Shown piece after piece: positions 1-42,968 of a stretch of 42,968 nucleotides of DNA (within the stretch, counting starts at the first letter, position 1; every line of letters starts with the position of its first letter). Below the pieces are notes generated by a model. It made no database searches and had not been told where the DNA came from. It worked only from the letters and a program-made list of their open reading frames with translations. The stretch comes from a virus. The stretch covers positions 1 through 42,968 of IMG/VR virus record IMGVR_UViG_3300032516_000059; one strand, written 5' to 3'. The position numbers and the translations under genes are program-made.

Positions 1-1121
1 GCCAGATCTCCGTTAACAAAGTTTCCGCTTACGGCGGCCGAACCCGCTGCTCCCCGGGCTCCTGATAAGTAAATTTTCCAATTCGCTATTGTTCCGCTTC
101 CACCGCTACTCTGAACATCTACCACAAGAGTCGTCCCTGTATAGCTTGTTACCTGGCCATGCATATAATTTGCGTTACTGGCGGCATCTACTATTAAGAT
201 AAATTGCCCAGCCGCAAATTGCTTGCCGGCTTGAGTAGTAAAAGTCTTTGCTCCTGTGCCTATAGCTACGCTTGAGGTTGAGGTTCCTTGTAGTGCTGCG
301 GCATAGGTTTGAGCTAAATCTCTGGCCGCCTCAGCTGCGGTCTGGGCCGCCTCAGCGTTTGTCTCGGCTAATTCCGCATTCGTCTCAGCGGTTTCCGCAT
401 TTGTCTCGGCAAGTTCTGCGTTAGTCTCAGCGGTCTCAGCGTGAGTTTCGGCAAGTTCAGCTGCGGTCTGGGCTATTACGGCCGCATCTCTGGCGTTCTC
501 TGCTGCTAATTGGGCCGCCTCTGCGTTAGTCTCAGCGAGCTCGGCATTTGTTTCGGCAGTTTCAGCGTTGGTTTCTGCCGTTTCAGCATTCGTCTCGGCA
601 GTCTCGGCATGGGTCTCAGCAAGCTCTGCTGCGGTTTGCGCTGCTAAGGCTGCGGTTTTAGCTACATCTATAGCCGCTTTTATTACAGTTATCGTGTTTA
701 TAAAATCATCAAGTCCTGTTAGGGTCGGTGTTTTATCAACGGGATATTTCGGACAACGGCTTAGCTCTTCCGCATGTTGTTGAGTAATCATAGTTAGCTT
801 ATCGAGGGCCGCTTCTATTATATCGGCGTTGAACGAACCCTGAGTGATAAGGTCCAATAACTGAGTCAGAATCTCCACTCGCGTTATAGTCAACTTCATT
901 CCCGTTGCAAGCGGAGCTCCCATGTTGGGGTAGGTCACTGTGGCTGCCCCTACATTTACCGTGTATTCGGTTGTTAGCAACGTGATTACTCCTGCAGCGT
1001 CGGTCAGGTATACCAGTATATCGCTTCCGTCGGTCGTGCTGATCGGAAATGTATACGGGAATACCGTGGCTGCATCCTTTCCGTTGTATACGTGCTTAAT
1101 GGTAGTCGTAGATATGGCCAT
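1..1121 (-). CDS. Tail fibre protein, N-terminal 373 residues (gene cut by the window edge)
   Basis: The frame opens with ATG at 1121 behind a strong AGGAGG five bases upstream and stays open to base 1. The first ~90 residues (MAISTTTIKHVYNGKDAATVFPY...) resemble the virion-attachment domain of T7 gp17-like fibres. Residues ~165-270 are a run of AETNAET-like heptads, a likely trimeric coiled coil, followed by a small beta region and a short collagen-like GARGAAG. It follows the other tail genes, as expected for a receptor-binding fibre anchored to the tail. The last two bases here (GC) join in frame to the open frame at 42968, giving a 414-residue protein if the contig is circular. The N-terminal family assignment is by resemblance; the fibre role is well supported by architecture. 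Confidence 0.85.
   Translation of the reverse strand, partial: MAISTTTIKHVYNGKDAATVFPYTFPISTTDGSDILVYLTDAAGVITLLTTEYTVNVGAATVTYPNMGAPLATGMKLTITRVEILTQLLDLITQGSFNADIIEAALDKLTMITQQHAEELSRCPKYPVDKTPTLTGLDDFINTITVIKAAIDVAKTAALAAQTAAELAETHAETAETNAETAETNAETAETNAELAETNAEAAQLAAENARDAAVIAQTAAELAETHAETAETNAELAETNAETAETNAELAETNAEAAQTAAEAARDLAQTYAAALQGTSTSSVAIGTGAKTFTTQAGKQFAAGQFILIVDAASNANYMHGQVTSYTGTTLVVDVQSSGGSGTIANWKIYLSGARGAAGSAAVSGNFVNGDL
316..640 (-). repeat. Degenerate 21-bp repeats encoding AETNAET heptads
   Basis: About fifteen imperfect 21-base units encode variants of A-E-[TL]-[AN]-x-[AT]-x inside the tail fibre, interrupted near the middle by a QLAAENARDAAV-like segment. A-rich heptads with regular E and T/N are typical of phage fibre stalks. 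Units differ mostly at third codon positions, so the repeat is old or kept by selection on protein rather than a fresh DNA expansion. Confidence 0.75.
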
Positions 1122-9505: not shown

Positions 9506-11316
9506 TTCTTTTTCTCTTGGCCTTCCATGTACTTGGCGCCTTCTGATTTTTCACTCTCTACGTAAGGCTCTATCCTGCCGTCAGGATATCCCATTGCCAG
9601 ATTACCTTCTGCGTCCATCAGCAGAGTTCCTTTTTCAGGAGCCGTGCTTAACTCGGGTATCTTGTTTATTGTAAAGTCCTGTATTGCTTTATGGCTTGCT
9701 TCTATGGGGTTGCCTCCCTTAGCGGCGGTCCCCAGCAGGTTCTTGATGTTTATTACCAGCTCCTCTTCGGTGGCGCCGATACCCTTCATCCTGGATACCA
9801 TTATTTTTACTGCGGCTACCAGAGGCATCATGTTTGTCGTTACGTCCAGCACTGTTCCTATTGCACTCTGTGGCTGTTCTTTTTTACGGATGGTTTCTAT
9901 TCCCTTTATGTTTTTCCTTAGCCCATTCAGCAGGGGAGCCTCATCCCTGTTTACTATCCCGTCTTTGTATGCATCTGCCAGTATCTCCATTGCATACAGG
10001 GCGTCTGTTTTGTCATCTACAAATGCGTTTATCAGGTTCAGGTACTCAGTTAGCTTCTTTGCGTTCTCGGTAAGAGTTAGTTTGCCTACGCCCTTCGTTC
10101 CCCAAGGGACGCCTTGGGTAGTCTGTTTTATATCCCGCTCTAAGTTGTTGCCTATCCTCTTTACGATACCTTCTTTATATTTCAGTAAGGTTTTTAGCGG
10201 AAGACGGCCTTGCTCCTCAGGAATCTCAATTTCTTTTTGTATGTCCGCTAAGGTTATTGTATGGTTGTTTATTTTGGATAAGATATCATCATTGCGAGCT
10301 TCCTGGAATTCCTTGTTCTGCTGGACTTGGATTTGGCTATTGTAGTATATCTTCTGTTGCGATTCCTTGATAGACTTGTTCAGTTCGGTGGTGGGGAGAT
10401 ATCCGAATATACCTTGCTTGCCTTTCTGCAGTTCTGCCATTACCTTAGAATCTTCCTGGCGTACGCTCCTGTCCTGGGCTATAGCCATGTCTACGGCGCG
10501 CTGGCCTATTTTATTGCTTAGGTCTGTATAGGTGGCTGGGGCTATCTTATCTTTTATTCCCTCAAGCATTGTCTTGGCCTGGAGGTAGTTGCCGGTCTGT
10601 TCTATGGCCGCAAGGATAGAGGATTCTGCTACCTCCTTGGCTACTTTCTCATTCTGTATCTCCTGGGTTGCCTTATCGTATCTTCTGTTATATGGCGCTA
10701 TGGTTGCCCTTGCATCTTCTATGGCCATCACAAGTTGCTTGTCGTCTCTTATCAACGAGGCGTCCATTATCTTTTGCTTTATGTTAGATTCTGTGGCGTT
10801 CTTGAAGTCTTCGTCCAGCTGGTTAGCCTCATGGGTGATTACATTGTTGCGAGTGGACATATAATAATTGTCCATCGCTGGGCTTAGTTTGCTTGCTTGG
10901 TATTGGCTGAGACCGCCTAAGTATTGTTTTTTTATCTGGGTTTCGTAGGCCTGGTCCAGCTCTACAGTAGCTCCTTTTGCCTGGCCGAGAGGTCTTAGCA
11001 GTAAGCCTTTCTTGCGAGTTACATCCTGGCCGCCGATCTGTATGGTTTCATCTTCTGGGTTAGTTAGACGATTCTGCAGATCCATGCGGAACGATGTTTC
11101 TCTTTTTATCACTTCTTTATCTTGTGCATCAATAGCCATTTGCTTTATGTGCCCGGCTATCTTTCCTATCGCTGCGCCCATATTCTGGGTTGCTTCCCCT
11201 ATATTCGCACCGAATGCGTCAGGAATTACTCTCGGCATGGTTACATTGGGAGTTTGAATCGGGTCTATGTGCGGAGTTCCTATTTTTACTCGTTCTTCAT
11301 ATGTAGGTACTTTCAT
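9502..11316 (-). CDS. Internal core protein, T7 gp15-like
   Basis: A 604-residue, largely helical, charged protein whose opening (PTYEERV, then a stretch ending in IGEATQNMGAAIGKIAGHIKQ) and alpha-helical body resemble the gp15-type internal virion proteins of podoviruses. Those form part of the ejection conduit across the periplasm. It lies between a gp14-like gene and the giant protein, overlapping the latter by four bases, the T7 order gp14-gp15-gp16. No enzymatic motif is visible. Assignment rests on position, size and helical composition; sequence similarity to T7 itself looks weak. Confidence 0.65.
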   Translation of the reverse strand: MKVPTYEERVKIGTPHIDPIQTPNVTMPRVIPDAFGANIGEATQNMGAAIGKIAGHIKQMAIDAQDKEVIKRETSFRMDLQNRLTNPEDETIQIGGQDVTRKKGLLLRPLGQAKGATVELDQAYETQIKKQYLGGLSQYQASKLSPAMDNYYMSTRNNVITHEANQLDEDFKNATESNIKQKIMDASLIRDDKQLVMAIEDARATIAPYNRRYDKATQEIQNEKVAKEVAESSILAAIEQTGNYLQAKTMLEGIKDKIAPATYTDLSNKIGQRAVDMAIAQDRSVRQEDSKVMAELQKGKQGIFGYLPTTELNKSIKESQQKIYYNSQIQVQQNKEFQEARNDDILSKINNHTITLADIQKEIEIPEEQGRLPLKTLLKYKEGIVKRIGNNLERDIKQTTQGVPWGTKGVGKLTLTENAKKLTEYLNLINAFVDDKTDALYAMEILADAYKDGIVNRDEAPLLNGLRKNIKGIETIRKKEQPQSAIGTVLDVTTNMMPLVAAVKIMVSRMKGIGATEEELVINIKNLLGTAAKGGNPIEASHKAIQDFTINKIPELSTAPEKGTLLMDAEGNLAMGYPDGRIEPYVESEKSEGAKYMEGQEKKK

Positions 11317-12887: not shown

Positions 12888-15811
12888 TATAATACTTTCG
12901 ATGTGCCACCTATAGTCACGGTTGGTATCAGTGCTGCTATGGTTACAGGAAGAGGGTCGAGTTGACGGTAAAACATCCGTCCGCCGTCCGCATACCCTCC
13001 TGATAAACTTTCTGCATGATCGCCTGAGAATAACTCAAGCGGGTCGTCATATGTAGACCTTGTAGTTGCCGCTATCTCGAACAGGTCGTTTTCGTTTGGC
13101 CCTAACCAGCCGCCCCTTGAGTTTAGGAATCTTATTATTACGCTGGAGATTTTAACTTTTCTGCCTTGGGCTGTTCCGTCCGGCAAGTTTACCTCTACAT
13201 TTAAGGTTTCCATATCTGCGATATAAGGCAGACCTACTTGCACTACGCTGTAATCTGCCCCGAGGGATATCGCTCCGCTAACCACTATTTTTCTGGCAAG
13301 TACATTACCGTCAGCTAATACAGATACAGTACAGCCTTCAAGATGATCCAACCCTATTATCGTGGCGGTAGGCGCTCCATCATAAGTTATACCGCAGTCT
13401 ACGAAGAACTGATCCTCGGGCTCTGCGGATACCATGCGTTGAGCCATTCTTTCTATATAGCGATTACCGCCTCTGTTTACCGATACCCAGAGCTCATCAT
13501 ATCCGCTACCTCTTATTGTGCATAATGATTCGAAGCTGGCTTCTAAGGCTGTGGCTACCCAGTTGCCAGCCGCTAAGTCTACAGCAAAAGATGCGTCGGC
13601 TGTATGACCGATCTTACACAGATAAGTCGCATCTTCGTATTCTACCCAGTTTCCTGCTACATATGCGGTTCCTGTTACCCAGGGTAGTGCGTCGGAGCGA
13701 TAGGTATCGTGCCAGGACCAGGCTATGATCTCCTGCTCGCGCATGTAGGTCATTGACAGCAACAGACCGTCGTTTCTTATTGCCCAGACTATCTTGTCCG
13801 GGTTCTGCTGGTATGCCATGTCTACTATGGTGTGTCCTGTGAATAGATGGTTTGAGAATATGGTCAGGTCTGCGCCTTCGAAGGTATCTGATGTCAGCAC
13901 AAAACCAAGGTCTCTCATGATTGAGCCGGTGGATTGGATATATATTGCGCGGTTACCTACCAGGAGCGGCCTTATACCATAGGAACCTTCCCAGCCGTGC
14001 ACTTTGTTGTACACGGATGTTGGGGATATCGGTCCGGAGCTTGAGCGGATACTGCACTCATTTGATAAGGTTAAGGCTACCAGTTCACCAAGAGGTACGA
14101 GTCCGTTTATGCCGTTTACTTTTCTTGATGGTAGAGGGCTTGATATCGCATCGGAGTCTACCAGAGGAGAGCTTCTTGAGAAATCCGTATAATCCCCTGT
14201 CTGGGTCATCCAGTATGTCTGGGGTTCATCGTAGGTATTGGCGAATACCAGGCGATCCTCGGGATGAAACTCTACCACTGCAGGCCAGCCCCGGTAGTCG
14301 CTCCAGCTGCCTTCAGCCCAGTCTATGGTGTCAGTTGTCGCTCCGCAGTTTCTTAGTACGTCTGCCGTTGCTGTTGCTCCACCTGCGGCTACTGCGGTTA
14401 TCTTCACTATGCCGTTTTGGTAGTATGGGTCTGAGGTCAGGTTTGCATTACAGGTTCCGCTTGTATCTGCGGTACAGTTCAGCCTAACCAGGAATGGGTC
14501 GGCGTTATCAGACATATCTTCCGTTCCGTAGGTGTTGGCATTGAAGTCATCAGCAGAGGAGAATTCTCGAAGCATGGTCCAGGTTGAACCACCGTCTGTT
14601 GATTTTTCTATCCTTATGGTCATTGTCCAGGTACCGTGGGTTATTAGTCGCCAGGTTCCTCCGCAGGTTATTGAGCCTGTGGCTCCTGTTCCGGTTATAC
14701 CTACAGTTAAGGCCTGCCCCTCGATGTAGTGGATGAGTTTCCATATAGAGCCGACATGGTAGGCATCAAAAGTAAATCCTGTGGCGGTGAGGGTTTTCCC
14801 TGTGCCGGTTACGGCGGATATCTTAAGAAGATTTGATTCATCAACGTTACCAAGCATAAATGGTCCGCCTTGGTAGTCATAGGCGTTCGCTTCCCAGTTT
14901 AGGTCGGCGTGCCTCTCTATTTGCATGGGGGCATGATCTGGATGAGTTACATATAGTACGTCTGCGGATTGGGTATAGTTTAGCTCTCTCAGCTCGTCTT
15001 CAGCGTAGGGAGTTGCTATTTCATACATAGCTTGGTTGGTCCAGTAGGTTGTTTCTGCCGGAGGAAAGTGGTTGGTGTTTTCTGCTGCTCCTGCTGATGC
15101 GAGTATGCAGGTATATAGTTTAGCGTTGGCGGTCAGGGCTGTGGCGCCCAGAGTTACGCCTGCTGTGGGCCTGGCTGCGGCGTAGGCGGCGTTCTCGGTT
15201 ACATACCAGTCGTCAATAGAGGCGTTTGCGGCTCTTAGAGCTGCTTGGATCAGGGATGCCTTGTTTTTAGCGGCCGTGGCATTAGCCAGGCTTATGGTTA
15301 TCAGTCCTGCCACATAAGTCACGGCCAGAGTATCACCTGCAGCTATCGCTACGGCTACAGTCTTTCCGGTTACGCTTTCTCCGTATGGAGCAGATACATG
15401 CAGTCTTTTTGTAGTTCCGCAGTTCAGGGATATATATGGGCCTACCTTTACGAAGTTTACCGCATCGGTTGTGTAGGAGGTTACTGGATTGAAATTTGCG
15501 GCATCGGTTGCCGTGTATAATATCGGGGCGCCGTTCTTGTAGAACCGGCAATAATATTCCCCGAATTCTATTACATAGGCTTGAGTGGTTGAGAATTCAA
15601 AGGGAATCACTCGGATCGCCTTGTTGGCGGTTTTCCCTGTGGCTATGTACTTAAAGCCCGGACGGTTAGAGATACCTCCATGGGGGTGGATTATGAAGTT
15701 CCTCAGCTTGCGGGCGCCTATGGCGTACTTGGCTAAGTCAACGCGCGAATATAGCGAAGGGGCGAATTCTCCTCCCGAGAACGACGGCTTTATTCCTGTG
15801 ACTGGTTGCAT
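12887..15811 (-). CDS. Large tail nozzle/tail tubular B-like protein
   Basis: A 974-residue protein opening with KPSFSGGEFAPSLYSRVDLAKYA and ...HPHGGISNRPGFKYI (each shown in part), the hallmark start of the podovirus tail proteins placed after tail tubular protein A. Residues ~150-230 and ~340-460 look like inserted Ig-like or carbohydrate-binding beta domains (Ala/Thr/Gly-rich, e.g. WTMTIRIEKSTDGGSTWTM). The body from ~540 on (PSRKVNGINGLVPLGELVAL) carries the conserved nozzle core. It probably closes the tail tip and takes part in surface contact. T7 gp12 is ~790 residues, so this version is longer, consistent with the inserted domains. Confidence 0.8.
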   Translation of the reverse strand: MQPVTGIKPSFSGGEFAPSLYSRVDLAKYAIGARKLRNFIIHPHGGISNRPGFKYIATGKTANKAIRVIPFEFSTTQAYVIEFGEYYCRFYKNGAPILYTATDAANFNPVTSYTTDAVNFVKVGPYISLNCGTTKRLHVSAPYGESVTGKTVAVAIAAGDTLAVTYVAGLITISLANATAAKNKASLIQAALRAANASIDDWYVTENAAYAAARPTAGVTLGATALTANAKLYTCILASAGAAENTNHFPPAETTYWTNQAMYEIATPYAEDELRELNYTQSADVLYVTHPDHAPMQIERHADLNWEANAYDYQGGPFMLGNVDESNLLKISAVTGTGKTLTATGFTFDAYHVGSIWKLIHYIEGQALTVGITGTGATGSITCGGTWRLITHGTWTMTIRIEKSTDGGSTWTMLREFSSADDFNANTYGTEDMSDNADPFLVRLNCTADTSGTCNANLTSDPYYQNGIVKITAVAAGGATATADVLRNCGATTDTIDWAEGSWSDYRGWPAVVEFHPEDRLVFANTYDEPQTYWMTQTGDYTDFSRSSPLVDSDAISSPLPSRKVNGINGLVPLGELVALTLSNECSIRSSSGPISPTSVYNKVHGWEGSYGIRPLLVGNRAIYIQSTGSIMRDLGFVLTSDTFEGADLTIFSNHLFTGHTIVDMAYQQNPDKIVWAIRNDGLLLSMTYMREQEIIAWSWHDTYRSDALPWVTGTAYVAGNWVEYEDATYLCKIGHTADASFAVDLAAGNWVATALEASFESLCTIRGSGYDELWVSVNRGGNRYIERMAQRMVSAEPEDQFFVDCGITYDGAPTATIIGLDHLEGCTVSVLADGNVLARKIVVSGAISLGADYSVVQVGLPYIADMETLNVEVNLPDGTAQGRKVKISSVIIRFLNSRGGWLGPNENDLFEIAATTRSTYDDPLELFSGDHAESLSGGYADGGRMFYRQLDPLPVTIAALIPTVTIGGTSKVL

Positions 15812-17078: not shown

Positions 17079-17687
17079 TTAGCCCCGGGAGTCTACGATA
17101 TCAGACTTCTCGTTGGATTCGTGGGCTTTGTTACTTTCATATGAGCTGTGCCTGTGAGCCTCACTGCATAAGGTGTTAAATATCGTCAGCTGGTCTTTTG
17201 CCATGTCCTTGTCTCCGCTTAGGGGCATCGCCAGTTCTGCGGCCAGCCTGTGCGATAGGGTGGTTATAAAGAAGCTGTCGAATTTTGTTACATCAGCTAC
17301 GAGGTAGGTGTACTCTGCATATGCGGTCTCGCAGTCTGTCACTATTATGTTCTGGTTGGTCGTAGGGTCATAGAGTACTTCAAATTTTTCTCCTACATCC
17401 TGGTCAAGAGTGCCGGCGTTGAATACCAGGCGCACGGCTACGCATTGGGCTGGCATAGCATAGGCGTATTCGTATATCAGCGGGGTGTAGGTGGCTACCT
17501 CCGCCAGGGCTACCTGCGTTTTGGCGAAGCCCCAGTTGTATCCTCGCAGGGTCTCTTTAAGTACGAAATCCCAGGCGCGCAGTGCGGCTTGGCATTGAAC
17601 AGTTACCTCTACCAGAGATTGGATGGGCTTCGCTGCTACGTGCGATAGAGAAAGATTTATTATGCTTACTTGGGTTGGGGCAGACAT
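17079..17687 (-). CDS. Tail tubular protein A (T7 gp11-like adaptor)
   Basis: A 202-residue protein with the family pattern INLSLSHVAAKPIQSLVE, a cluster of Cys/Ala ahead of AWDFVLKETLRGYNWGFAK, then YEYAYAMPAQCVAVRLVF and a C-terminal helix with SHRLAAELAMPLSGD. This family forms the ring between portal and nozzle. Its start overlaps the end of the O-antigen-ligase-like gene by 22 bases, suggesting translational coupling. The C-terminal tail is unusually rich in Ser, Glu, His and Asn. Confidence 0.85.
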   Translation of the reverse strand: MSAPTQVSIINLSLSHVAAKPIQSLVEVTVQCQAALRAWDFVLKETLRGYNWGFAKTQVALAEVATYTPLIYEYAYAMPAQCVAVRLVFNAGTLDQDVGEKFEVLYDPTTNQNIIVTDCETAYAEYTYLVADVTKFDSFFITTLSHRLAAELAMPLSGDKDMAKDQLTIFNTLCSEAHRHSSYESNKAHESNEKSDIVDSRG

Positions 17688-18634
17688 GTTTTCTCCTTTA
17701 TTTTTCGTTCACAGTAGGACAGGAATGCTATCCATATCAGCACTGTGTTCGCTACCCTTGTAGGAAAGTGAATGCTCATATCTATTGTTATCAATGACAG
17801 GCATATCAGCAGTAGCTTTTCTTTTCGTAAGCGATAGAATAAAAAGCCTAACGCGCCTATCATAAATACAAAGCCGGGGTATCCGCATTCAAATAATACC
17901 TGCAGGAAATCGTTGTGTGCGGTTACCCAGGACCAAGTCTTCAAGCCCGATAGAGGAAAGAATATATCTTTGTATGTGCCGATGCCCCAGCCCGCTATGG
18001 GGTGTTGGTTGGCAAGTTTAATTGTGATATCCCAGACTGGTAGCCTGCTGGCCAGGGGGTTATGGAGAATTGGGTCGGTGTAAATACATAGAATTAGGAC
18101 GAGTGATAGAACCGACAGTAGGACGGCTTTCCAGCTTATTCCTTTTATCGCTATTATCAATGCCAGTGCTACCAGGAGAAAACTTTCCGTCTGCATTCGG
18201 CTTCCTATTACTCCGTGCGATATTATTGTCTTGCCGGCGGAGAAGTTTAGCAGGCTGTCCTTGCCTAAGAATTGCATGGCCATAAAGAATATATTGAAAG
18301 CTACGAGGGCGAGTACGGCCTTGAATATGATATTCCAGTCCTTGATCCTGGTGCATAGGATATAAAAATAACAGCAGGCCATCAGGTTTACGTAGGCGGT
18401 GAATGCTATGTAGGGGGCTCGGCTGATAAAACAGTTTATCAGGGCTCCGATGGCTATCGCTTTTATGAATAAGTTGGTCTTGAGGAAGAGTATGCAGAAA
18501 CCAGCGAAGCTCGCCAGCACTGCCATCATTACCCAGAGGTGGAAGTTCGGGTTGGGTATATGAAATGGTATCGGCGGTATGAGTGCATAAAAAATTATCA
18601 GCGTAGCGACGCCGTAGGCCTTTATTTTATCCAT
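17666..18634 (-). CDS. O-antigen ligase/polymerase-like membrane protein (Wzy_C family)
   Basis: A polytopic protein of ~322 residues with about nine or ten hydrophobic segments. The family signature lies at ~215-275: SRLPVWD, then HPIAGWGIGTYKD, then the loop with AHNDFLQVLFECGYPG. WaaL/Wzy proteins join O-antigen to lipid A core or polymerise it at the periplasmic face of the inner membrane. Phage versions usually alter host surface polysaccharide to block superinfection. I start at ATG 18634 (an in-frame TTG lies six bases upstream); no clear Shine-Dalgarno is visible, and the start falls right behind a terminator hairpin. Sitting between capsid and tail genes it behaves like a moron gene. 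Ligase versus polymerase cannot be told. Confidence 0.75.
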   Translation of the reverse strand: MDKIKAYGVATLIIFYALIPPIPFHIPNPNFHLWVMMAVLASFAGFCILFLKTNLFIKAIAIGALINCFISRAPYIAFTAYVNLMACCYFYILCTRIKDWNIIFKAVLALVAFNIFFMAMQFLGKDSLLNFSAGKTIISHGVIGSRMQTESFLLVALALIIAIKGISWKAVLLSVLSLVLILCIYTDPILHNPLASRLPVWDITIKLANQHPIAGWGIGTYKDIFFPLSGLKTWSWVTAHNDFLQVLFECGYPGFVFMIGALGFLFYRLRKEKLLLICLSLITIDMSIHFPTRVANTVLIWIAFLSYCERKIKEKTCLPQPK

Positions 18635-18673: not shown

Positions 18674-19135
18674 TTATGCCTGTCCTACGACTACGCTATT
18701 GGTGCCTATCACTATCCAGCCTACACTGGTGTCAACAAATAACAGTGTCGCTGAATCTAACGCCGCATCAAAGTACAAGGTCGTGAATCCTGTCTTGGTC
18801 GCTGGTGTAAGCGTAAAGGTTCCTGATCCGCTTACCGCCGTTATGAATATAGTCAGGATTTGACCGGGCGTGCCGTTTGCCAGTGTGCCGGTGGTGAAGC
18901 CGGACGCATCGGTTATGGCTTTTCTTACCAGTGAATAGCTCGTAGGGATAGTCGTTACGCTGGTTGCTATGGATGTGGCTCCGCCAAAAGTGGTTCCAGC
19001 TGCCTGTAGGTAGCTTGGCACTACTTTCTTCAGCAGGCCGTATGTGTCTGTCTCACCCCAGTTATTCGCGTCGCAATAGCCTAAGGATACTATCGCCAGC
19101 ATTATAACCAAGGTCAGTAGGAATGTTCTTCTCAC
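18674..19135 (-). CDS. Signal-peptide protein with virion decoration-like domain
   Basis: A 153-residue protein that starts with a clear Sec signal (MRRTF, hydrophobic core LLTLVIMLAIVSL, likely cleavage near CDA-NNW). The C-terminal ~85 residues (GTPGQILTIFITAV, TTLYFDAALDSATLLFVD, GWIVIGTN) match the beta-domain often seen in phage head- or tail-associated structural proteins. Its place directly after the cement gene also suggests a capsid link, yet the signal peptide directs export from the cytoplasm. Strong AGGAGG-type ribosome site upstream. Function unknown; the clash between domain and signal is discussed as a finding. Confidence 0.65.
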   Translation of the reverse strand: MRRTFLLTLVIMLAIVSLGYCDANNWGETDTYGLLKKVVPSYLQAAGTTFGGATSIATSVTTIPTSYSLVRKAITDASGFTTGTLANGTPGQILTIFITAVSGSGTFTLTPATKTGFTTLYFDAALDSATLLFVDTSVGWIVIGTNSVVVGQA

Positions 19136-19186: not shown

Positions 19187-19612
19187 TTATTTTATCAGGT
19201 CCATAGTCTTGGCAACATCCAAGACGATGTGCGCGTCCATTGCGCCTGAATCCATTGCTGCGCTGAAAGTATAATACACTCTCAGGTACCTATAGGCTCC
19301 CGAGGGTATGACGGCGTCAAGAAGAACAACGCCTACTGCCCCTGCGGCCGTGGCCGCTCCTGCCGCGATGGTGATCGTCGGTCCGGAGATCAAGGTCTTC
19401 AGGACCGTCGCAAACCCGGAGTCTGTGTCCGTCTCCAGCTTCGCTATGATCGTTCCGCCGCCTGCGTCTACATAGGCGGTTGCGATCCTTACTCTGATCC
19501 GTGCCCCGGGCGATATGGCATCACCTGCGGCGAGTGTGTCGATGAAGCTGGTCGATGCGCCGGTGTTCAGTATCGCTTGAGCTTCGCTTAGTGCTAAATA
19601 TTTGTCAAGCAT
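19187..19612 (-). CDS. Capsid cement protein, Bbp16-like
   Basis: A 141-residue protein that starts MLDKYLALSEAQAIL, continues with a short Asp/Gly turn (TSFIDTLAAGDAI) and then a beta-sandwich pattern (RIRVRIATAYVDAGGGTIIAKLETDTDSGF in part; YRYLRVYYTFSAAM). This is the layout of the Bbp16 family, the jelly-roll cement protein of Bordetella phage BPP-1. It lies immediately after the major capsid gene, as in BPP-1-like phages. It presumably sits on the outside of the capsid at the threefold axes. Confidence 0.75.
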   Translation of the reverse strand: MLDKYLALSEAQAILNTGASTSFIDTLAAGDAISPGARIRVRIATAYVDAGGGTIIAKLETDTDSGFATVLKTLISGPTITIAAGAATAAGAVGVVLLDAVIPSGAYRYLRVYYTFSAAMDSGAMDAHIVLDVAKTMDLIK

Positions 19613-33419: not shown

Positions 33420-33710
33420 TTAGAAGAAGTGTTGCTGTTGTTCTTTAGTCTCTGTTCTTTCGCGATAGATACGCACGGCCTCGGAGTGCGAGCATCGGTT
33501 ATATTTTCTGTAGCCTTGGCAGTTGCAGGCGAGGCGACCGATCTGTTCCCTGATCGTGTACGGCGTTATGTTGTAGCCGGGGATAGGTAGCACCTGGTAG
33601 ACGCCGTCAGCTATCTTTTTTATCAGCTCGAGCTCGAGAAGTTTTTTTACTTTATAGCTTACTGGCTGAGCGAACGTGCCTGTGCTTGCTTCGTAGTGTT
33701 GGATAACCAT
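33420..33710 (-). CDS. SWIM zinc-finger protein
   Basis: A 96-residue protein. The C-terminal half has CNCQGYRKYNRCSHSEAVRIY, the CxC-xn-CxH SWIM zinc-binding motif, which binds DNA or proteins and in other systems works with recombination factors. The N-terminal half (VKKLLELELIKKIADGVYQV) resembles a small winged-helix. The ATG at 33710 follows GAGG at nine bases and overlaps the end of the RlpA-like gene by 59 bases, three bases after the stop of the nested ORF. Confidence 0.75.
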   Translation of the reverse strand: MVIQHYEASTGTFAQPVSYKVKKLLELELIKKIADGVYQVLPIPGYNITPYTIREQIGRLACNCQGYRKYNRCSHSEAVRIYRERTETKEQQQHFF

Positions 33711-34239
33711 ATCTTAGTACCTCAATTTTGATTGGAACAAGCCCCTCACTAAGTTTTGCAAGGCGGCTGAAGGCCAACTTCGAAAGGTCGACGGCTCTGC
33801 CTTTGGCGACGAGCCTTTTAGCTGGTCCTCGGTCTGTAACGAGTACCACAACAGAATTATTCCTCTTAGCAGAGCCCCGAACCTTCGTCTTCCGATGTGT
33901 AGCCTTATTAGGTTCAAGGCGAGTAATTCTAAGCAGAGTACCAAAAGGATAGCTTGGGTGAGCACATGTAAGTTCATTTTCGTTGAACCTCCTTCCTGAA
34001 GCGGTTGTGAAGTGAGGCCAGGGATCGCAGGTGTCTCCTTCCTGGCCATACCATGATGCGTATATGGGTGATTTGTCAGCCCTGCTTTCTTGGTGCACCA
34101 GCAGACCGCCGAGTGCCATGATAATTACGGGCCAGCACGGGATCGACCCGATTGTTTTTTTAAGGGAGTAGATAGTCCTGTGCTTTAACCTATCTACTAT
34201 CAGTAAGAACGACGCCTTCATGGCGTATGCTGGCCCCAT
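33652..34239 (-). CDS. RlpA-like cell-wall enzyme (double-psi beta-barrel)
   Basis: A 195-residue protein with an N-terminal signal-anchor-like span (IPCWPVIIMALGGLLV, ~33-48) and then the RlpA domain: YASWYGQEG, TTASGRRFNENELTCAHPSYPFGT, VVVLVTDRGPAKR and GRAVDLSKLAF with the catalytic-type Asp. RlpA is a lytic transglycosylase acting on naked glycan strands at the division septum, at the periplasmic face. Here it may be the endolysin or an entry/lysis helper. A weak AAGGA precedes ATG 34239. It follows RecT by three bases, an unusual place for a lysis gene. Confidence 0.8.
   Translation of the reverse strand: MGPAYAMKASFLLIVDRLKHRTIYSLKKTIGSIPCWPVIIMALGGLLVHQESRADKSPIYASWYGQEGDTCDPWPHFTTASGRRFNENELTCAHPSYPFGTLLRITRLEPNKATHRKTKVRGSAKRNNSVVVLVTDRGPAKRLVAKGRAVDLSKLAFSRLAKLSEGLVPIKIEVLRYGYPTLRSKHRHVRSASKL
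33714..33977 (-). CDS. Nested membrane-protein ORF within the RlpA-like gene (candidate)
   Basis: In a second frame inside the RlpA-like gene, ATG 33977 follows a full AAGGAGGT at ten bases and opens an 87-codon ORF. It starts MNLHVLTQAILLVLCLELLALNL, one strong hydrophobic span, then a basic turn (IGRRRFG) and a second hydrophobic piece (ALLRGIILLWYSL), the outline of a small holin or nested lysis protein. Its TAA at 33714 lies three bases before the SWIM-gene ATG, as for a normal gene. The ribosome site coincides with codons for the conserved GRRFNENEL of RlpA, so chance is not excluded. Confidence 0.4.
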   Translation of the reverse strand: MNLHVLTQAILLVLCLELLALNLIRLHIGRRRFGALLRGIILLWYSLQTEDQLKGSSPKAEPSTFRSWPSAALQNLVRGLFQSKLRY

Positions 34240-38545: not shown

Positions 38546-39031
38546 TTATTTAATCAACAGTGATGAAAAAGGATAGGCATTGGTCATCAGGTACAACAGT
38601 GCGCACACAAAGACTTCTTCTGCGGGTGCGTACAGGGGGTTCTTTATTCCCAGATAGATACTCCAGGCGGCAACGCCTATGTTGGGAATAAAAATCCAAA
38701 GCATCTTGGGTCCGTATAAAAATATAAAAAGCAGGGCTACCGTAAGGTTCATTGCACAGTATACCAGCCTACGGAATAATTTACTTCCAGTGGTTTCTCC
38801 TCCATAGCCGAAAGAGAAACCTATCGCCACCAGTATATAGGTAAGTAGTAGCCAGGCATTCCATATTCCCATTATCCAGGCGCACAGGTTCGTGCTGGCT
38901 TCCTGGAATAGGGGTGCGATAAACCTACGGAGCCATTTGTTCTTCCGGCCGCCAAGCATATAAAATAAGCACATAAACGCCAGGGCGAATATAGCTCCGG
39001 TTGCCGCGTATCCTATAGTGTACTCATTCAT
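38546..39031 (-). CDS. Polytopic membrane protein (about 4-5 spans)
   Basis: A 161-residue protein with hydrophobic segments at ~8-26, ~52-72, ~90-108, ~110-128 and ~135-152 separated by short basic loops (GGRKNKWLRR, TTGSKLFRR). No family recognised. It is the last gene of the late region and overlaps the preceding -1-frame ORF by eight bases. Possible roles are a holin or superinfection-exclusion membrane protein; not decided by sequence. Confidence 0.55.
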   Translation of the reverse strand: MNEYTIGYAATGAIFALAFMCLFYMLGGRKNKWLRRFIAPLFQEASTNLCAWIMGIWNAWLLLTYILVAIGFSFGYGGETTGSKLFRRLVYCAMNLTVALLFIFLYGPKMLWIFIPNIGVAAWSIYLGIKNPLYAPAEEVFVCALLYLMTNAYPFSSLLIK

Positions 39032-39260
39032 GGATCTCGAATTCCCAGTGGCATTTTACTCTGGGAGCTGTGCCATCGCAGACCAGCTTGGCCTTCCTGA
39101 TCTGCCCCGGCTTGGAGTTCTTGTTCTCTATCACCGTGTCTATGGTATGTATTTCTTCTGGTAGCTTCTTGTTGGTCCAGAACCAGAAGCCAAACTTCCA
39201 GCGCAGGAGCTTGAGTATAGCCTTGTATGCCAGGGACTCAAGTACCAGCGCCCAGATTAG
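39024..39260 (-). CDS. 78-residue -1 frame extension of the 39257-39490 gene (candidate frameshift product)
   Basis: This frame, LIWALVLESLAYKAILKLLR (first 20 residues) and on to ...KCHWEFEIHE, has no ATG, GTG or TTG before its conserved-looking body, so it needs another way to start. It is in the -1 frame relative to the 77-residue gene before it, and C-CCA-AAC straddles the end of that gene just before its TAA. A -1 slip would make a 155-residue protein. Its stop overlaps the next gene's ATG in normal operon fashion. The extension adds a hydrophobic/aromatic helix (LRWKFGFWFW) and a beta-like soluble tail. Confidence 0.5.
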   Translation of the reverse strand, partial: LIWALVLESLAYKAILKLLRWKFGFWFWTNKKLPEEIHTIDTVIENKNSKPGQIRKAKLVCDGTAPRVKCHWEFEIHE

Positions 39261-39490
39261 TTTGGGAGAGTTACCTTCCCAGCCATCTTCTCAGATAGCC
39301 AGTACAAGCCTTTTTTAATAGCTGATGCTACTGCATCTACCTTGGGGATCAGCCAGTCGTCCTTCTTGGTAGGCGTTATAGATACTACGCCTGCGATCAG
39401 TTTAGCTATGGCCTCAACGATGCCCACCACTAAGGCCACATTCTTGACTATCCAGGCCAAGATGCCTAAGATAAAATGTATTACCACCAT
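39257..39490 (-). CDS. Small membrane protein (77 aa), zero-frame product
   Basis: Start ATG 39490 behind a perfect AGGAGGT. Residues 1-38 are hydrophobic (HFILGILAWIVKNVALVVGIV, then IAKLIAGVV), probably one or two spans, followed by a soluble helix (DAVASAIKKGLYWLSEKMAG). The gene ends VTLPN with the heptamer CCCAAAC right before its TAA. Holin-like in size, but no family is recognised. Confidence 0.6.
   Translation of the reverse strand: MVVIHFILGILAWIVKNVALVVGIVEAIAKLIAGVVSITPTKKDDWLIPKVDAVASAIKKGLYWLSEKMAGKVTLPN
39260..39266 (-). promoter_or_regulatory. Candidate -1 frameshift slippery site C CCA AAC
   Basis: Read on the minus strand in the frame of the 77-residue gene, C CCA AAC fits X XXY YYZ exactly and is followed at once by TAA. 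A stem CTTGAGT/ACTCAAG (39210-39242) lies 17 bases downstream, somewhat further than usual for a stimulatory hairpin. Confidence 0.5.
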
Positions 39491-39506
39491 CTTTACCTCC
39501 TTTTAG

Positions 39507-39851
39507 TTAGTTCCACCCTCTTACTGTTAAATATCCGATATAGTTATTTACATAAAACCAGCTGGCCAGGTACGTGGATTCAAGCAAGATCTGCAGGTGT
39601 CCTGGGCTGTTGGCTGCTTTTTCATATAATAAGTACGCAATGGTATTGTCATCGCTTCCTCTATAACTGCATCCTCCTACTACCTCTGCTTTGTTTTCCC
39701 GGTAACACTCAGGGGCGTGCATGACCTCGTAGCTGTTCGCCATGTGCAGGCAGTGCGCCAGGCAATTCTCGTGCTCTTCCTGGTTCGCCGGGATCGCAGG
39801 AGATTTACCGTATTTAGCCCGGAATGTATTGATATGTTCGTCAAGCGTCAT
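39507..39851 (-). CDS. CAP-superfamily (SCP/PR-1-like) protein
   Basis: A 114-residue protein with the short CAP pattern: LAHCLHMANSYEVMHAPEC (first His pair), GGCSYRG, AYLLYEKAANSPGHLQILL (the SPGH signature) and YIGYLTVRGW closing strand. CAP proteins are usually secreted and bind lipids or wall components; phage examples are rare. No signal peptide is visible at this start, though the gene sits among membrane and exported proteins. It has four Cys. It overlaps the next upstream gene by 11 bases. Confidence 0.65.
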   Translation of the reverse strand: MTLDEHINTFRAKYGKSPAIPANQEEHENCLAHCLHMANSYEVMHAPECYRENKAEVVGGCSYRGSDDNTIAYLLYEKAANSPGHLQILLESTYLASWFYVNNYIGYLTVRGWN

Positions 39852-40146
39852 GGTTCGCTTTTTTAAGCAATGCGTCTACTCCAGCTTTTATATCAGGGAT
39901 ACATGCTACCTTAGCTTTTATCTCGGCTATGTTTTCATTTACCTGCTTGTGTACTAACTCGCAGAGCTTAGCATCTACCTTTTTGTCATCTAACTCTTTA
40001 TTCCTTTCGTCAATCCTGGTGTATATCCTTGCCCTCTTACCAGCCTCGTCATTAGACACCTTGTACATAAAGTTAAGGAACCCGGCGCCTAATCCAAGTA
40101 CGGTGATACCTAAACTACCAAATGCTATACCTTCCCCTGGGGTCAT
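39841..40146 (-). CDS. Membrane-anchored coiled-coil protein
   Basis: A 101-residue protein with an N-terminal hydrophobic span (AFGSLGITVLGLGAGFLNFMY) and then a charged coiled coil (RIYTRIDERNKELDDKKVDA, VHKQVNENIAEIKAKV). This is the outline of small phage lysis accessory proteins (XhlA-like or spanin-like, but with the span first). Function not certain. It overlaps the CAP gene start. Confidence 0.55.
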   Translation of the reverse strand: MTPGEGIAFGSLGITVLGLGAGFLNFMYKVSNDEAGKRARIYTRIDERNKELDDKKVDAKLCELVHKQVNENIAEIKAKVACIPDIKAGVDALLKKANHDA

Positions 40147-40155
40147 ACGGCCTCC

Positions 40156-40608
40156 TTATTCTTTTGCTACTATATAAGCTTTGACGGTTAGAAGGTCATC
40201 TGCATCGGTGTTGGTTGCTGCGGTGGCCAGTCTTACGTATGGAACCACCAGGTCTTTATTGGTCCAGCAGTAGTAGCTCCCATCGGCTGAGATAGTCTCG
40301 GAGGTCTGCAGGGTTGCTCCGCCGGTATAGTCATAGAAAGATGCGGCCTGCCAAGTTATGTTGTCGTAGGATATCTCCATGGTTACTGCTGCCGATATAG
40401 CAGCGCCTACCTGGGTTTCATCGTAGGTGACAAAGAACGCCGTCTTTTCGTAGCCTGCTACGCTGGTTGCCGTAGAATTTACAGCGGTGGTTACGTCGTT
40501 GAACGTGGTATTCATTATCTGGGTGTTTAATACTGTTCCTGCCATTGCGATCCCTGACATTAAGACTAATGCCAGTAATACTAAACCGAACTTTTTGAGC
40601 ATGTTCAT
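40156..40608 (-). CDS. Signal-peptide protein with virion-like beta-domain
   Basis: Start ATG 40608 (150 aa) is set by AAAGGAGG four bases upstream; the longer frame has no ribosome site. A Sec signal (MNMLKKFGLVLLALVLMSGIAMA, cut after AMA) precedes a beta-rich domain with TMEISYDNITWQAASFYDY, SETISADGSYYCW and VPYVRLATAATNTDADDLLTV. The same domain type is found in phage tail or head decoration proteins. An exported version is unexpected. Unknown function. Confidence 0.65.
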   Translation of the reverse strand: MNMLKKFGLVLLALVLMSGIAMAGTVLNTQIMNTTFNDVTTAVNSTATSVAGYEKTAFFVTYDETQVGAAISAAVTMEISYDNITWQAASFYDYTGGATLQTSETISADGSYYCWTNKDLVVPYVRLATAATNTDADDLLTVKAYIVAKE

Positions 40609-40621
40609 GTATCCTCCTTTG

Positions 40622-41029
40622 TTATTCACTTGTATCTTCGTTAATATCAAGTTTACCCTCTACTTTTAATTGCTGTATGGCCTCGGCGCGGGCTATGGCT
40701 TCCTTCTTCTCAGCAATAAGCTGTTCCTTCCTCTGTTTCTTTTGAGCCTCTGCGGTCACTAACTTTTCAGCCTCAAGCTTTGCTATATCCGTAACGCTCA
40801 TATCCTCTGCCGATAAGGTAGCCATAAAAGGTTGCCCTGTCCTAACATTGACTAAATCGCTATCAGAGAATCTCATCTTTGAGCCATTGTCATTGAGGTA
40901 ATACCATCCCTTTGCATCCCTGACTATCTCCGTTGCCTTTTTATTGATAGTCACCGTTTCCGCAAAGCAAAGACTGATTAAAACCATCACCACCACTAAC
41001 GCCAAAAATACAGGTATAAATCTTTTCAT
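40622..41029 (-). CDS. Exported protein with C-terminal coiled coil
   Basis: A 135-residue protein: Sec signal MKRFIPVFLALVVVMVLISL then CFA-ET as likely cleavage; a short SH3-like or beta segment (TINKKATEIVRDAKGWYYLN, RFSDSDLVNVRTG); and a Lys/Glu/Ala-rich helix from ~80 on (LEAEKLVTAEAQKKQRKEQL). No family recognised. It may be periplasmic, for example a partner of the other exported proteins around it. Confidence 0.6.
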   Translation of the reverse strand: MKRFIPVFLALVVVMVLISLCFAETVTINKKATEIVRDAKGWYYLNDNGSKMRFSDSDLVNVRTGQPFMATLSAEDMSVTDIAKLEAEKLVTAEAQKKQRKEQLIAEKKEAIARAEAIQQLKVEGKLDINEDTSE

Positions 41030-41043
41030 CTTTTCTCTCCTTT

Positions 41044-42213
41044 TTAGTTAAGGTTTAATTTCTCTAATACATAAAAAGTTCCGATGCCAAGAGCATTGGC
41101 ATCCTCACTATTTATAACTAAACTTGTGATTTCATCTGCCGTGTTATTCCAAACACTACCATGCAATTCTATGGCAGTTATGGTAGTAGTCGCAACTCCT
41201 ATAACTGACTCTATTATTGCTGTCCTTACATATCCAGATTTGGCATAGATGAGTGCTTCATAATAACCAATGTCTCCCGCTGTTACTGCATAACCTAACC
41301 ACCAATGATACCCATAGGAAGTTGAACGATAGGCTGCTACAGTGGTGTCGCTACCATATAATCTTTGAATGCCATAATTAGCAGTTGTAGTATCCCCATT
41401 AGGTTCAAGAAATATAGAGGAGGAATTTACTCCTTCAACATGTCTAACCCTCAACCTATAAATCACATCAGTATTGCCCGTAAGATTGCTTATCGTTACC
41501 GAGGTTGCTGCACCCGTCAGCGTTCCCTTTGTCACTTCTTGCCAAACATTTTTAACCTTGCCTTTTATATTCATGGCCCCATATCGCTTACCGCTTGTGG
41601 CATCTACTTTTTTGAGTAGGATCATGCGAGAGCCGATACCTATACCATCGGCATCTAATGCCAATACATTTATTTCTGTGATATTATCTGCGGTGTTATT
41701 CCAAGAATCTCCCCACAACATTATATTGCTTACAGTAGTGGTATATATATTTTCAGCACTTTTAAGTATTACTGTCCTGACATACCCTGATTTGGCATAA
41801 ATATGGGCAATTCCCAAGCAAGAGCTTCCAGTTATACTTGAACTGCCAAATCTATAAATGGCTCCTATACCTGTATTCCTTGCAGCACTTGCAGTGGTGT
41901 TACTTCCACTCAATACTTGAAAACCATAATTGGTAGCCCCAGAGTCGTTATTAAATCTCATAATAAAACTTGTTCCGTTATTTCCAGCTACACCATCTAT
42001 TCCTCTCACTATCATTTCATATTCCTTATCAGTATTACCGTTAAGGTTATTTATCGTTACCGAAGTTGCCGCAGCCCCTAATTCTCCGCTATCCGACACT
42101 ACCTGCATTAAGTCATTTATCTTGCCGTCTATACTGCCGTAGTCTTTTGCGAAACTGACTTGCGGTATGATTAAACTTAATGCCAATAAAAATAAAAGGA
42201 TTATTTTTTTCAT
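41044..42213 (-). CDS. Exported protein with two copies of a fibre-like module
   Basis: A 389-residue protein with a Sec signal (MKKIILLFLLALSLIIPQ, cut near FA-KD). The rest is two copies of a ~165-residue beta-rich module with shared landmarks: ATSVTI-NL-GNT, NYG-Q-L-GS-TT, IYAKSGYVRT, I-LWGDSWNNTAD/HGSVWNNTADEIT and G-GIG. The same module occurs once in the next upstream gene. It looks like a receptor-binding or adhesin beta domain, placed right after the tail fibre. Probably a surface-displayed or virion-associated protein; AT-richer than the structural genes. Confidence 0.6.
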   Translation of the reverse strand: MKKIILLFLLALSLIIPQVSFAKDYGSIDGKINDLMQVVSDSGELGAAATSVTINNLNGNTDKEYEMIVRGIDGVAGNNGTSFIMRFNNDSGATNYGFQVLSGSNTTASAARNTGIGAIYRFGSSSITGSSCLGIAHIYAKSGYVRTVILKSAENIYTTTVSNIMLWGDSWNNTADNITEINVLALDADGIGIGSRMILLKKVDATSGKRYGAMNIKGKVKNVWQEVTKGTLTGAATSVTISNLTGNTDVIYRLRVRHVEGVNSSSIFLEPNGDTTTANYGIQRLYGSDTTVAAYRSTSYGYHWWLGYAVTAGDIGYYEALIYAKSGYVRTAIIESVIGVATTTITAIELHGSVWNNTADEITSLVINSEDANALGIGTFYVLEKLNLN

Positions 42214-42833
42214 TGTTTATATTCCTTTCCCCAAAGACAGATGTATGTGCCGATGCCCAGACCACTTGCTTGGTCTGCACTAATAACCAAACTTGTTACT
42301 TCATCTGTGGTATTATTCCAAGATTGACCTACTAAGTAAAGTTGACCCACTGTAGTTGTAACAATATGGCTTATTCGCCCTTGAATACCAGTCCTTACAT
42401 ATCCTGATTTAGCGTGAATTAGAGTTTCGCTCAATGAAGTACTACCTAAAGCAGAAGCTGCCCCTACATACAGAAAAGCATCGGCATACCTGGAAGCAGT
42501 AACAGTAGTATTTATTGCGCGTAAATGTTGTATTCCATAATTAGCCCCGGTATCATTATTTATAGTTAACCCTGCGTAACAAGAGCCATCATACCCATTG
42601 ACTACCTTTGTATTTAATCTATACTCCACCGTCGTATTCCCTGCGAGGTTGCTTATCGTGACCGAGGTGGCATTAGCCAAAAGGGTTGTTTCATATATCT
42701 TGGTAAAGCAATCCGAGCTAAAATTACCCTGCGGATAGACCTTGCCCATCTGCTTGTAGTTCGTGGCGAAGATGTCATCAACACAGCTGAATATCAATGC
42801 TCCGGCTATTATTAAATAGAGTAGTTTTTTCAT
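42210..42833 (-). CDS. Exported protein with one copy of the fibre-like module
   Basis: Start ATG 42833 (207 aa) is chosen since AAGGAG lies eight bases upstream and a Sec signal begins there (MKKLLYLIIAGALIFSCVDD, lipobox-like IFSC or cleavage near IFA-TN). Then comes one copy of the module seen twice in the next gene (ATSVTISNLAGNT, NYGIQHLRAINTT, IHAKSGYVRTGI, SWNNTTDEVT, GLGIGT). It follows the tail-fibre stop by 11 bases and overlaps the next gene by four. Confidence 0.6.
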   Translation of the reverse strand: MKKLLYLIIAGALIFSCVDDIFATNYKQMGKVYPQGNFSSDCFTKIYETTLLANATSVTISNLAGNTTVEYRLNTKVVNGYDGSCYAGLTINNDTGANYGIQHLRAINTTVTASRYADAFLYVGAASALGSTSLSETLIHAKSGYVRTGIQGRISHIVTTTVGQLYLVGQSWNNTTDEVTSLVISADQASGLGIGTYICLWGKEYKQ

Positions 42834-42844
42834 TCCTGTTCTCC

Positions 42845-42968
42845 TTATAAGTAGCGGTATCCCCAAGTTCCCGATAGTGTAGCGTAATCAGTTAGGTCTA
42901 TCGCAAAAGTATTCGTGGCAAAGGTAATCGGGCAGTCTACCTCCTTGCTGTTGTTATCTACTACCTTA
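42845..42968 (-). CDS. Tail fibre, C-terminal end (continues from base 1 if circular)
   Basis: The frame from the right edge (K V V D N N S K E V D, then DCPITFATNT, TDYATLSGTWGYRYL) ends with TAA at 42845-42847. Joined to the left-edge fibre it reads ...FVNGDLA-KVVDNN..., a natural fibre sequence without a frame break. On its own it is a 40-residue fragment. Its C-terminal SGTWGYRYL resembles fibre tips of related genes. Confidence 0.75.
   Translation of the reverse strand, partial: KVVDNNSKEVDCPITFATNTFAIDLTDYATLSGTWGYRYL

Follow-up and report, generated by a model that had tools for sequence, protein, structure and literature searches.

The stretch of DNA analysed here, IMG/VR virus record IMGVR_UViG_3300032516_000059 (42,968 bp; the window), comes from a podovirus with a capsid and tail set of the phiV10/epsilon15 type, comprising terminase, portal, protease, major head, cement and tail adaptors, and nearly all of its coding lies on the minus strand. 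Our subject is five of its genes, whose products open with Sec signal peptides: g1 to g4, which start at 42833, 42213, 41029 and 40608 and of which g1-g3, possibly with g4, make up module A, and a gene starting at 19135 in the capsid module, which together with a neighbouring Wzy_C gene makes up module B (Table 1). The genes g1-g4 form one tight run behind the tail fibre, with a 4-bp overlap in which the start of g2 meets the stop of g1, followed by gaps of 14 and 13 nt. The tail-fibre gene itself starts at 1121, leaves the contig at position 1 and re-enters it at 42968. Comparison of its end with the tail fibre of a second phage, contig L003, whose C-terminus reads ...FVNGDLSTGKLTVTHSLGLSAPYTRIVVVVDNNNKVIDCPITF...GTWGYRYI, indicates that only about 70 bp are absent between the contig ends, so that g1 is the first gene 3' of the tail fibre.

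Table 1. Features of the window, with positions from its first letter; a slash marks the predicted signal-peptide cut
Feature	Position	Strand	Remarks
Tail fibre, N-terminal part	1..1121	(-)	begins MAISTTTIKHVYNGKDAATVFPYTF...
Wzy_C (O-antigen ligase/polymerase superfamily) membrane protein	17666..18634	(-)	about 8 transmembrane segments; invariant R197, H240-N241, G251
Exported beta-protein	18674..19135	(-)	signal peptide 19067-19135, flexible linker, beta-domain
RlpA-like double-psi beta-barrel protein	33652..34239	(-)	PF03330; possible long signal peptide; outside the 38-42 kb run
Holin/i-spanin-like small protein	39841..40146	(-)	one N-terminal transmembrane segment; equivalent in L003 at 10181-10504
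g4	40156..40608	(-)	signal peptide 40540-40608, cut GIAMA/GTV; domain of about 127 residues, no family assigned
g3	40622..41029	(-)	signal peptide 40961-41029, cut LCFA/ETV; small domain and coiled coil
g2	41044..42213	(-)	389 aa; signal peptide 42148-42213, cut QVSFA/KDYG; two tandem copies of the beta-domain of g1
g1	42210..42833	(-)	207 aa; signal peptide 42765-42833, cut VDDIFA/TNYK; one fibre-type beta-domain
Tail fibre, C-terminal end	42845..42968	(-)	

All five proteins have a positive n-region, a hydrophobic h-region, small residues at -3/-1 and no further transmembrane segment, and strong Shine-Dalgarno sites precede all five starts. A first-pass annotation of the window had named the same five as signal-bearing and proposed signal-peptide prediction, which was run with a home-made scorer (n-region charge, h-region, -3/-1 rule) and not with SignalP. 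The scores of 8.4 (42833), 11.3 (42213), 11.1 (41029), 11.8 (40608) and 9.5 (19135) place all five essentially within the range of well-known E. coli Sec leaders, which gave 8.4-11.7 (twelve leaders served as positive controls, one of which, an E. coli enterotoxin leader, is to be disregarded). Among shuffled N-termini a score of 8 was reached in 2.6%, 10 in 0.3% and 11 in 0.05%. The same scan of lambda returned Lom and Rz1 as the only plausible matches, and of phiV10 only Rz1, apart from a few open reading frames that overlap or oppose known genes; five soluble exported proteins is a high count for one 43-kb phage. The other genes between 38546 and 42833 (at 38546, 39257, 39507 and 39841) encode proteins, some membrane-bound and some soluble, in which no cleavable signal peptide is convincing, the 39257 product being a 77-aa transmembrane protein despite its score of 9.8. 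Export of the five proteins through predicted, and in our view genuine, Sec signal peptides is well supported.

The same contig L003, a lambda-type siphovirus with its own integrase and repressor, carries orthologues of g1-g3 behind its tail fibre in the same gene order; they are 52-62% identical (62% for g3) and all keep the signal peptide, at 52-65% identity. Over the 68 signal codons shared with the window, the proportion of nonsynonymous differences (pN) is 0.23 and that of synonymous differences (pS) 0.63 (saturated), so that purifying selection acts on the signals of g1-g3 as it does on the mature proteins; the -3/-1 residues are conserved as well. True starts downstream of the signal peptides, which the first-pass annotation had named as grounds for abandoning export, were rejected because L003 has no internal Met there and the strong Shine-Dalgarno sites lie ahead of the signal peptides. 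In L003 a CHAP-type endolysin at 15107-15574 also has a clear Sec signal peptide. Relatives of g4 were found neither in IMG/VR at the search sensitivity used nor in isolated phages, and g4 has no similarity to the cement protein at 19187; isolated phages likewise yielded no relatives of g1 or g2.

Homologues of g1 and g2 that lack a signal peptide occur in seven further contigs, L004, L009, L010, L011, L012, L064 and L067, of which L004 is identical to L013, a contig in an Omnitrophica metagenome-assembled genome (MAG). The g1/g2 pair lies directly 3' of a tail fibre with a common C-terminal domain in the window, L003, L004, L011, L012 and L064, and in L010 one small gene stands between them. 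These homologues align from their residue 1 to the mature part of the exported forms, for g2 exactly so (MKTGSLEGFVDRTWQIVHDSGEL in L004, and SFA/KDYGSIDGKINDLMQVVSDSGEL in the window), and so the signal peptide is an add-on before residue 1. The syntenic signal-less protein of L004 has only its C-terminal coil in common with g3. The fibre-type domain is present exactly three times in each of five virus records examined and in the window, as a rule once in g1 and twice in g2, a number that suggests a pseudo-trimer. A tree of the domain copies groups them mostly by position, with the window and L003 as neighbours in each group and moderate support. The first strand of g1 has Trp in the six signal-less proteins read and Phe in both signal-bearing ones. 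A LamG-like insert (LFDGTGDYLSLASSTDWYFGSGDFTIDFW...) in the signal-less L009, L010 and L067 suggests, by its sequence, carbohydrate (glycan) binding. Directly 3' of the signal-less g1-g3 homologues of L004, at 10036-10581 (L013 12036-12581), lies a gene for a signal-peptide protein with a carbohydrate-binding module (CBM_5_12), and upstream of the fibre pair of L009, at 2710-3573, one for an exported outer-membrane beta-barrel protein (weak OMP_b-brl match).

AlphaFold2, given 17 sequences of the domain, returned a confident beta-sandwich (predicted local distance difference test, pLDDT, 91.7; predicted template modelling score, pTM, 0.86). It has 370 matches in BFVD at E<=1e-3 with template modelling scores (TM-scores) up to 0.8, several of them named tail fiber, Stf repeat or collagen repeat and including A0A6J5NIY9 and A0A6J7WNA6 (TM-score 0.72-0.80), and phrog_31512 is likewise among its closest known counterparts. 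Matches in the PDB are weak beta-sandwich and galectin-like folds, mostly with TM-scores below 0.4, and we therefore do not claim a lectin identity. By predicted fold, sequence family and position behind the tail fibre alike, g1 and g2 belong to a family of fibre or receptor-binding domains, and have themselves acquired export. The earlier proposal that three or more of the exported proteins carry virion-type beta-domains stands for the 42833, 42213 and 19135 products and is unproven for those of 40608 and 41029.

Module B pairs the exported 18674-19135 protein with a membrane enzyme whose gene starts 39 bp 3' of it. The model of the exported protein has a low-confidence flexible stretch and, from about residue 51, a beta-domain (pLDDT about 90) whose best, weak PDB matches are CBA120 TSP4, T4 gp9-gp10 and other virion adaptor domains; isolated phages gave only weak matches (E=0.3). 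The enzyme was listed earlier as O-antigen-ligase-like, and its assignment to the O-antigen ligase/polymerase superfamily is borne out by PF04932 above the cut-off (37 bits; cut-off 31.7), multiple transmembrane segments and a catalytic Arg and His. An IMG/VR search that used an alignment of Wzy proteins returned 18 loci on 15 distinct contigs. In all 18 the product of the gene directly 5' of the Wzy_C-like gene has a signal peptide, with scores of 9.4-12.4; the Wzy start of L151 is overlapped by a short open reading frame that is spurious. The same pair is present on two more contigs, each in an Omnitrophota MAG of its own, which brings the count to 17 of 17 distinct contigs (20 loci), at identities to the window's Wzy protein down to about 26%. 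Only two soluble signal-peptide proteins lie outside the pair among the other genes of 14 Wzy loci. Beta-domains of the 18674 type are common in phages; eight of 64 further loci score with a signal peptide, and a Wzy relative is present only where the domain protein has one. The pair usually lies 3' of the major capsid and a cement-like gene, and in the window between cement and tail-adaptor genes. The exported partner encoded at L083 2081-5494 (= L148 2697-6101), directly 5' of the Wzy_C-like gene, is fibre-like, 744 aa long and has a strong signal peptide. Some phages carry two copies of the beta-domain, since L006 (7623-8177) and L073 (6220-6804) have a second one, apparently with an export signal, further downstream in the structural module.

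PF04932 holds both WaaL and PglL, and an Arg and a His (R288 and H338 in E. coli) that are essential in WaaL are kept in PglL (PMC3643930). Across 16 Wzy proteins of our set R197, H240, N241, G251 and the HN-x9-G spacing are invariant, and R197 and H240 fit those essential residues. Genes for pglL stand beside the gene of their substrate, a pilin, in 21 of 31 cases (PMC3643930); module B resembles the PglL/TfpO/PilO systems in that a PF04932 enzyme adjoins one exported protein on the same strand in all of its contigs and keeps the catalytic Arg and His. It differs in that their acceptor is a pilin, whereas the putative acceptor here is a phage beta-domain protein, and in that no PglL-specific Pfam model was matched. 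Many of the exported partners have a stretch rich in Gly, Ala, Ser and Thr (GGATSMAS) ahead of the beta-domain, which we mention, as speculation, as an acceptor site.

The first-pass annotation had joined these genes into a single envelope-directed set. The signal peptides, the fibre-type beta-domains, the Wzy_C gene, the RlpA-like gene (lytic transglycosylase family; PF03330, DPBB_1; 62.5 bits, E 4.5e-17) and the envelope theme itself are upheld, while the label CAP for 39507-39851 finds no Pfam family at E<=1. The single set instead divides into two independent modules, because L003 has module A without module B (no Wzy match in the contig) and 13 Wzy-bearing viral contigs, most of them fragments, contained no module A domain. 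New beyond the earlier annotation are the signal-less homologues of the 42833 and 42213 proteins behind tail fibres elsewhere, and the tie of the capsid-module signal protein to a Wzy_C neighbour in every contig found. A search of 384 Omnitrophota genomes for the fibre domain matched only the MAG already known; the Wzy alignment search matched two more Omnitrophota MAGs, both on short phage contigs, and gave no match in 388 genomes of the phylum of a Lentisphaerae MAG. In the literature searched, we found no paper that describes this gene set.

Parts of both modules have counterparts in known systems. The tail-fibre and fibre-tip beta-domain proteins are like g1 and g2 in fold, position behind the tail fibre and tandem copies, but the relatives read have no Sec signal peptide, whereas the forms of the window and L003 do. 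Phage T5 encodes Llp, which is a proven lipoprotein, targets FhuA and blocks the receptor of T5 itself from within the periplasm (PMC9586334). Like Llp and Cor of T1 and phi80, lipoproteins of superinfection exclusion, module A would be a phage protein exported to the periplasm with a proposed receptor block; it differs in origin, its domain coming from the fibre family, and lipidation is possible for g1, where a candidate lipobox at Cys17 (LIFSC in the window, LIFGC in L003) fits a permissive PROSITE-like pattern and a type I site fits too. Scans with PHROG and Pfam named no Llp or Cor family, though neither protein was compared directly with those of the window. Lambda Lom is likewise an exported product directly behind the central tail fibre, but is annotated as an outer-membrane protein, whereas g1 and g2 are predicted fibre-type beta-sandwiches. 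Phage-encoded O-antigen enzymes, as in module B, are known from phages that seroconvert their hosts, D3, epsilon15, phiV10 and VarioGold; phiV10, which has its capsid and tail gene order in common with the window, encodes next to the tail fibre an O-acetyltransferase that serves superinfection immunity. In VarioGold, an isolated temperate Variovorax phage (L158 2081-4230, VG_p25-p26), the signal-peptide gene VG_p26 lies just 5' of a Wzy_C gene; this pair does not match the profiles of the window pair, and no homology of VG_p26 with the exported protein of module B was detected.

We favour, at a probability of roughly 0.45, a reading in which two independent envelope modules of Sec-exported phage proteins serve the phage, module A by masking its receptor and module B by altering surface glycans. 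The signal peptides, homology, synteny and linkage described above are observed; where the proteins go after export, that a receptor is blocked and that glycosylation takes place are what we infer. Module A (g1-g3, possibly g4) would be an exported form of a fibre-tip set: late in infection, beside lysis-like genes, exported copies of g1-g3 would reach the periplasm or outer membrane and bind the phage's own receptor or a surface glycan, and the resulting block of adsorption would keep new virions from being trapped on a dying host cell and would exclude superinfection. In module B the exported beta-protein and its dedicated O-antigen-ligase-family enzyme would change the glycans that reach the surface, the enzyme perhaps transferring a lipid-linked glycan onto the protein exported beside it, in the way that enzymes of the PglL type modify the pilin encoded next to them. 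A more specific joint version we regard as quite unlikely: that a capsid-cluster glycosylation unit, of exported beta-protein acceptor and its own transferase, stands beside receptor-masking fibre-tip copies in phages whose hosts belong to a poorly known phylum of diderms, probably Omnitrophota, and that lipid-linked surface sugars of the host are diverted onto a phage glycoprotein.

Several observations weigh against the favoured reading. Module A with signals is present in only two phages, the window and L003, and the score behind those signals is simple and home-made. The fibre-type domains of the signal-less phages are probably virion parts, which makes capture onto virions at lysis a real alternative and the main rival for module A. 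Apart from the possible lipobox of g1, nothing points to a way across the outer membrane. The host is probably an Omnitrophota bacterium, on the basis of phage contigs in MAGs that are possibly mis-binned. In module B, five of five members matched only PF04932 and not the PglL-specific flanking motifs PglL_A and PglL_B, while TIGR03097, the O-glycosylation ligase model, matched weakly in one of five (E=9e-5); PilO also occurs without PglL_A and PglL_B (PMC3643930). Module B may simply bring about seroconversion, its exported protein serving some other purpose.

Capture would mean that g1-g3 take on their fold in the periplasm and attach to the C-terminal domain of the tail fibre once lysis brings periplasm and virions together. 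That this fibre domain and the mature N-termini of g1 and g2 are kept in signal-bearing and signal-less phages alike speaks for such a detour of virion assembly, and the domain number, three in each phage, would suit the capping of a trimeric fibre; against it stands the Phe that both signal-bearing forms of g1 have where the others have Trp, a sign that constraint on the docking segment may have eased. Synthesis and assembly of phage fibre domains are usually placed in the cytoplasm. We know of no phage that assembles them by way of the periplasm, and this explanation seems unlikely. For module B the main rival, seroconversion without a protein acceptor by an enzyme of the Wzy-beta or WaaL type, as in D3 and epsilon15, with the exported protein as a helper and not a substrate, is doubtful: PF04932 spans polymerases, ligases and PglL alike, D3 and VarioGold have such genes and Halomonas phage YPHTV-1 has one adjoining an O-acetyltransferase, yet seroconversion needs no exported beta-protein, and one adjoins the enzyme in every distinct contig.

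Lysogenic conversion unconnected to a receptor, with cargo behind the tail fibre conferring Lom-like adhesion or other envelope traits, would suit the position of lambda lom, whose exported outer-membrane product is encoded directly behind gene J, and the integrase and repressor of L003. We consider it improbable, as the exported proteins are homologues of fibre domains and not beta-barrels, and no integrase is present among the window proteins scanned. It is very improbable that these are ordinary virion proteins of the cytoplasm whose hydrophobic N-termini are uncleaved anchors or artefacts of misplaced starts. The protein g1 does have the lowest score and an Asp-Asp in its c-region, but this view is contradicted by the AXA-type cleavage sites, the strong Shine-Dalgarno sites, the conservation of the -3/-1 residues in L003 and the signal-less homologues, whose first residue matches that of the mature form.

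Elsewhere in the window, the gene at 29494-30096 matches a transposase/resolvase family (phrog_6620, 1e-51), which we take to be IS607-like, and borders a low-GC stretch at 30-32 kb (35%, compared with about 49%). The 2,790-aa product of 1133-9505, with a weak lysozyme/endolysin-like segment at about residues 1390-1465 (phrog_894), is probably an internal virion protein.

Selection appears to have preserved, in two phages of unrelated type, a signal peptide placed before residue 1 of fibre-tip proteins. Such an addition would mean that phages can reuse receptor binders as exported blockers, or else assemble fibres outside the membrane. A strict pairing of an exported protein with an enzyme of the ligase family would, in turn, amount to a phage-borne unit for glycosylation or surface remodelling.

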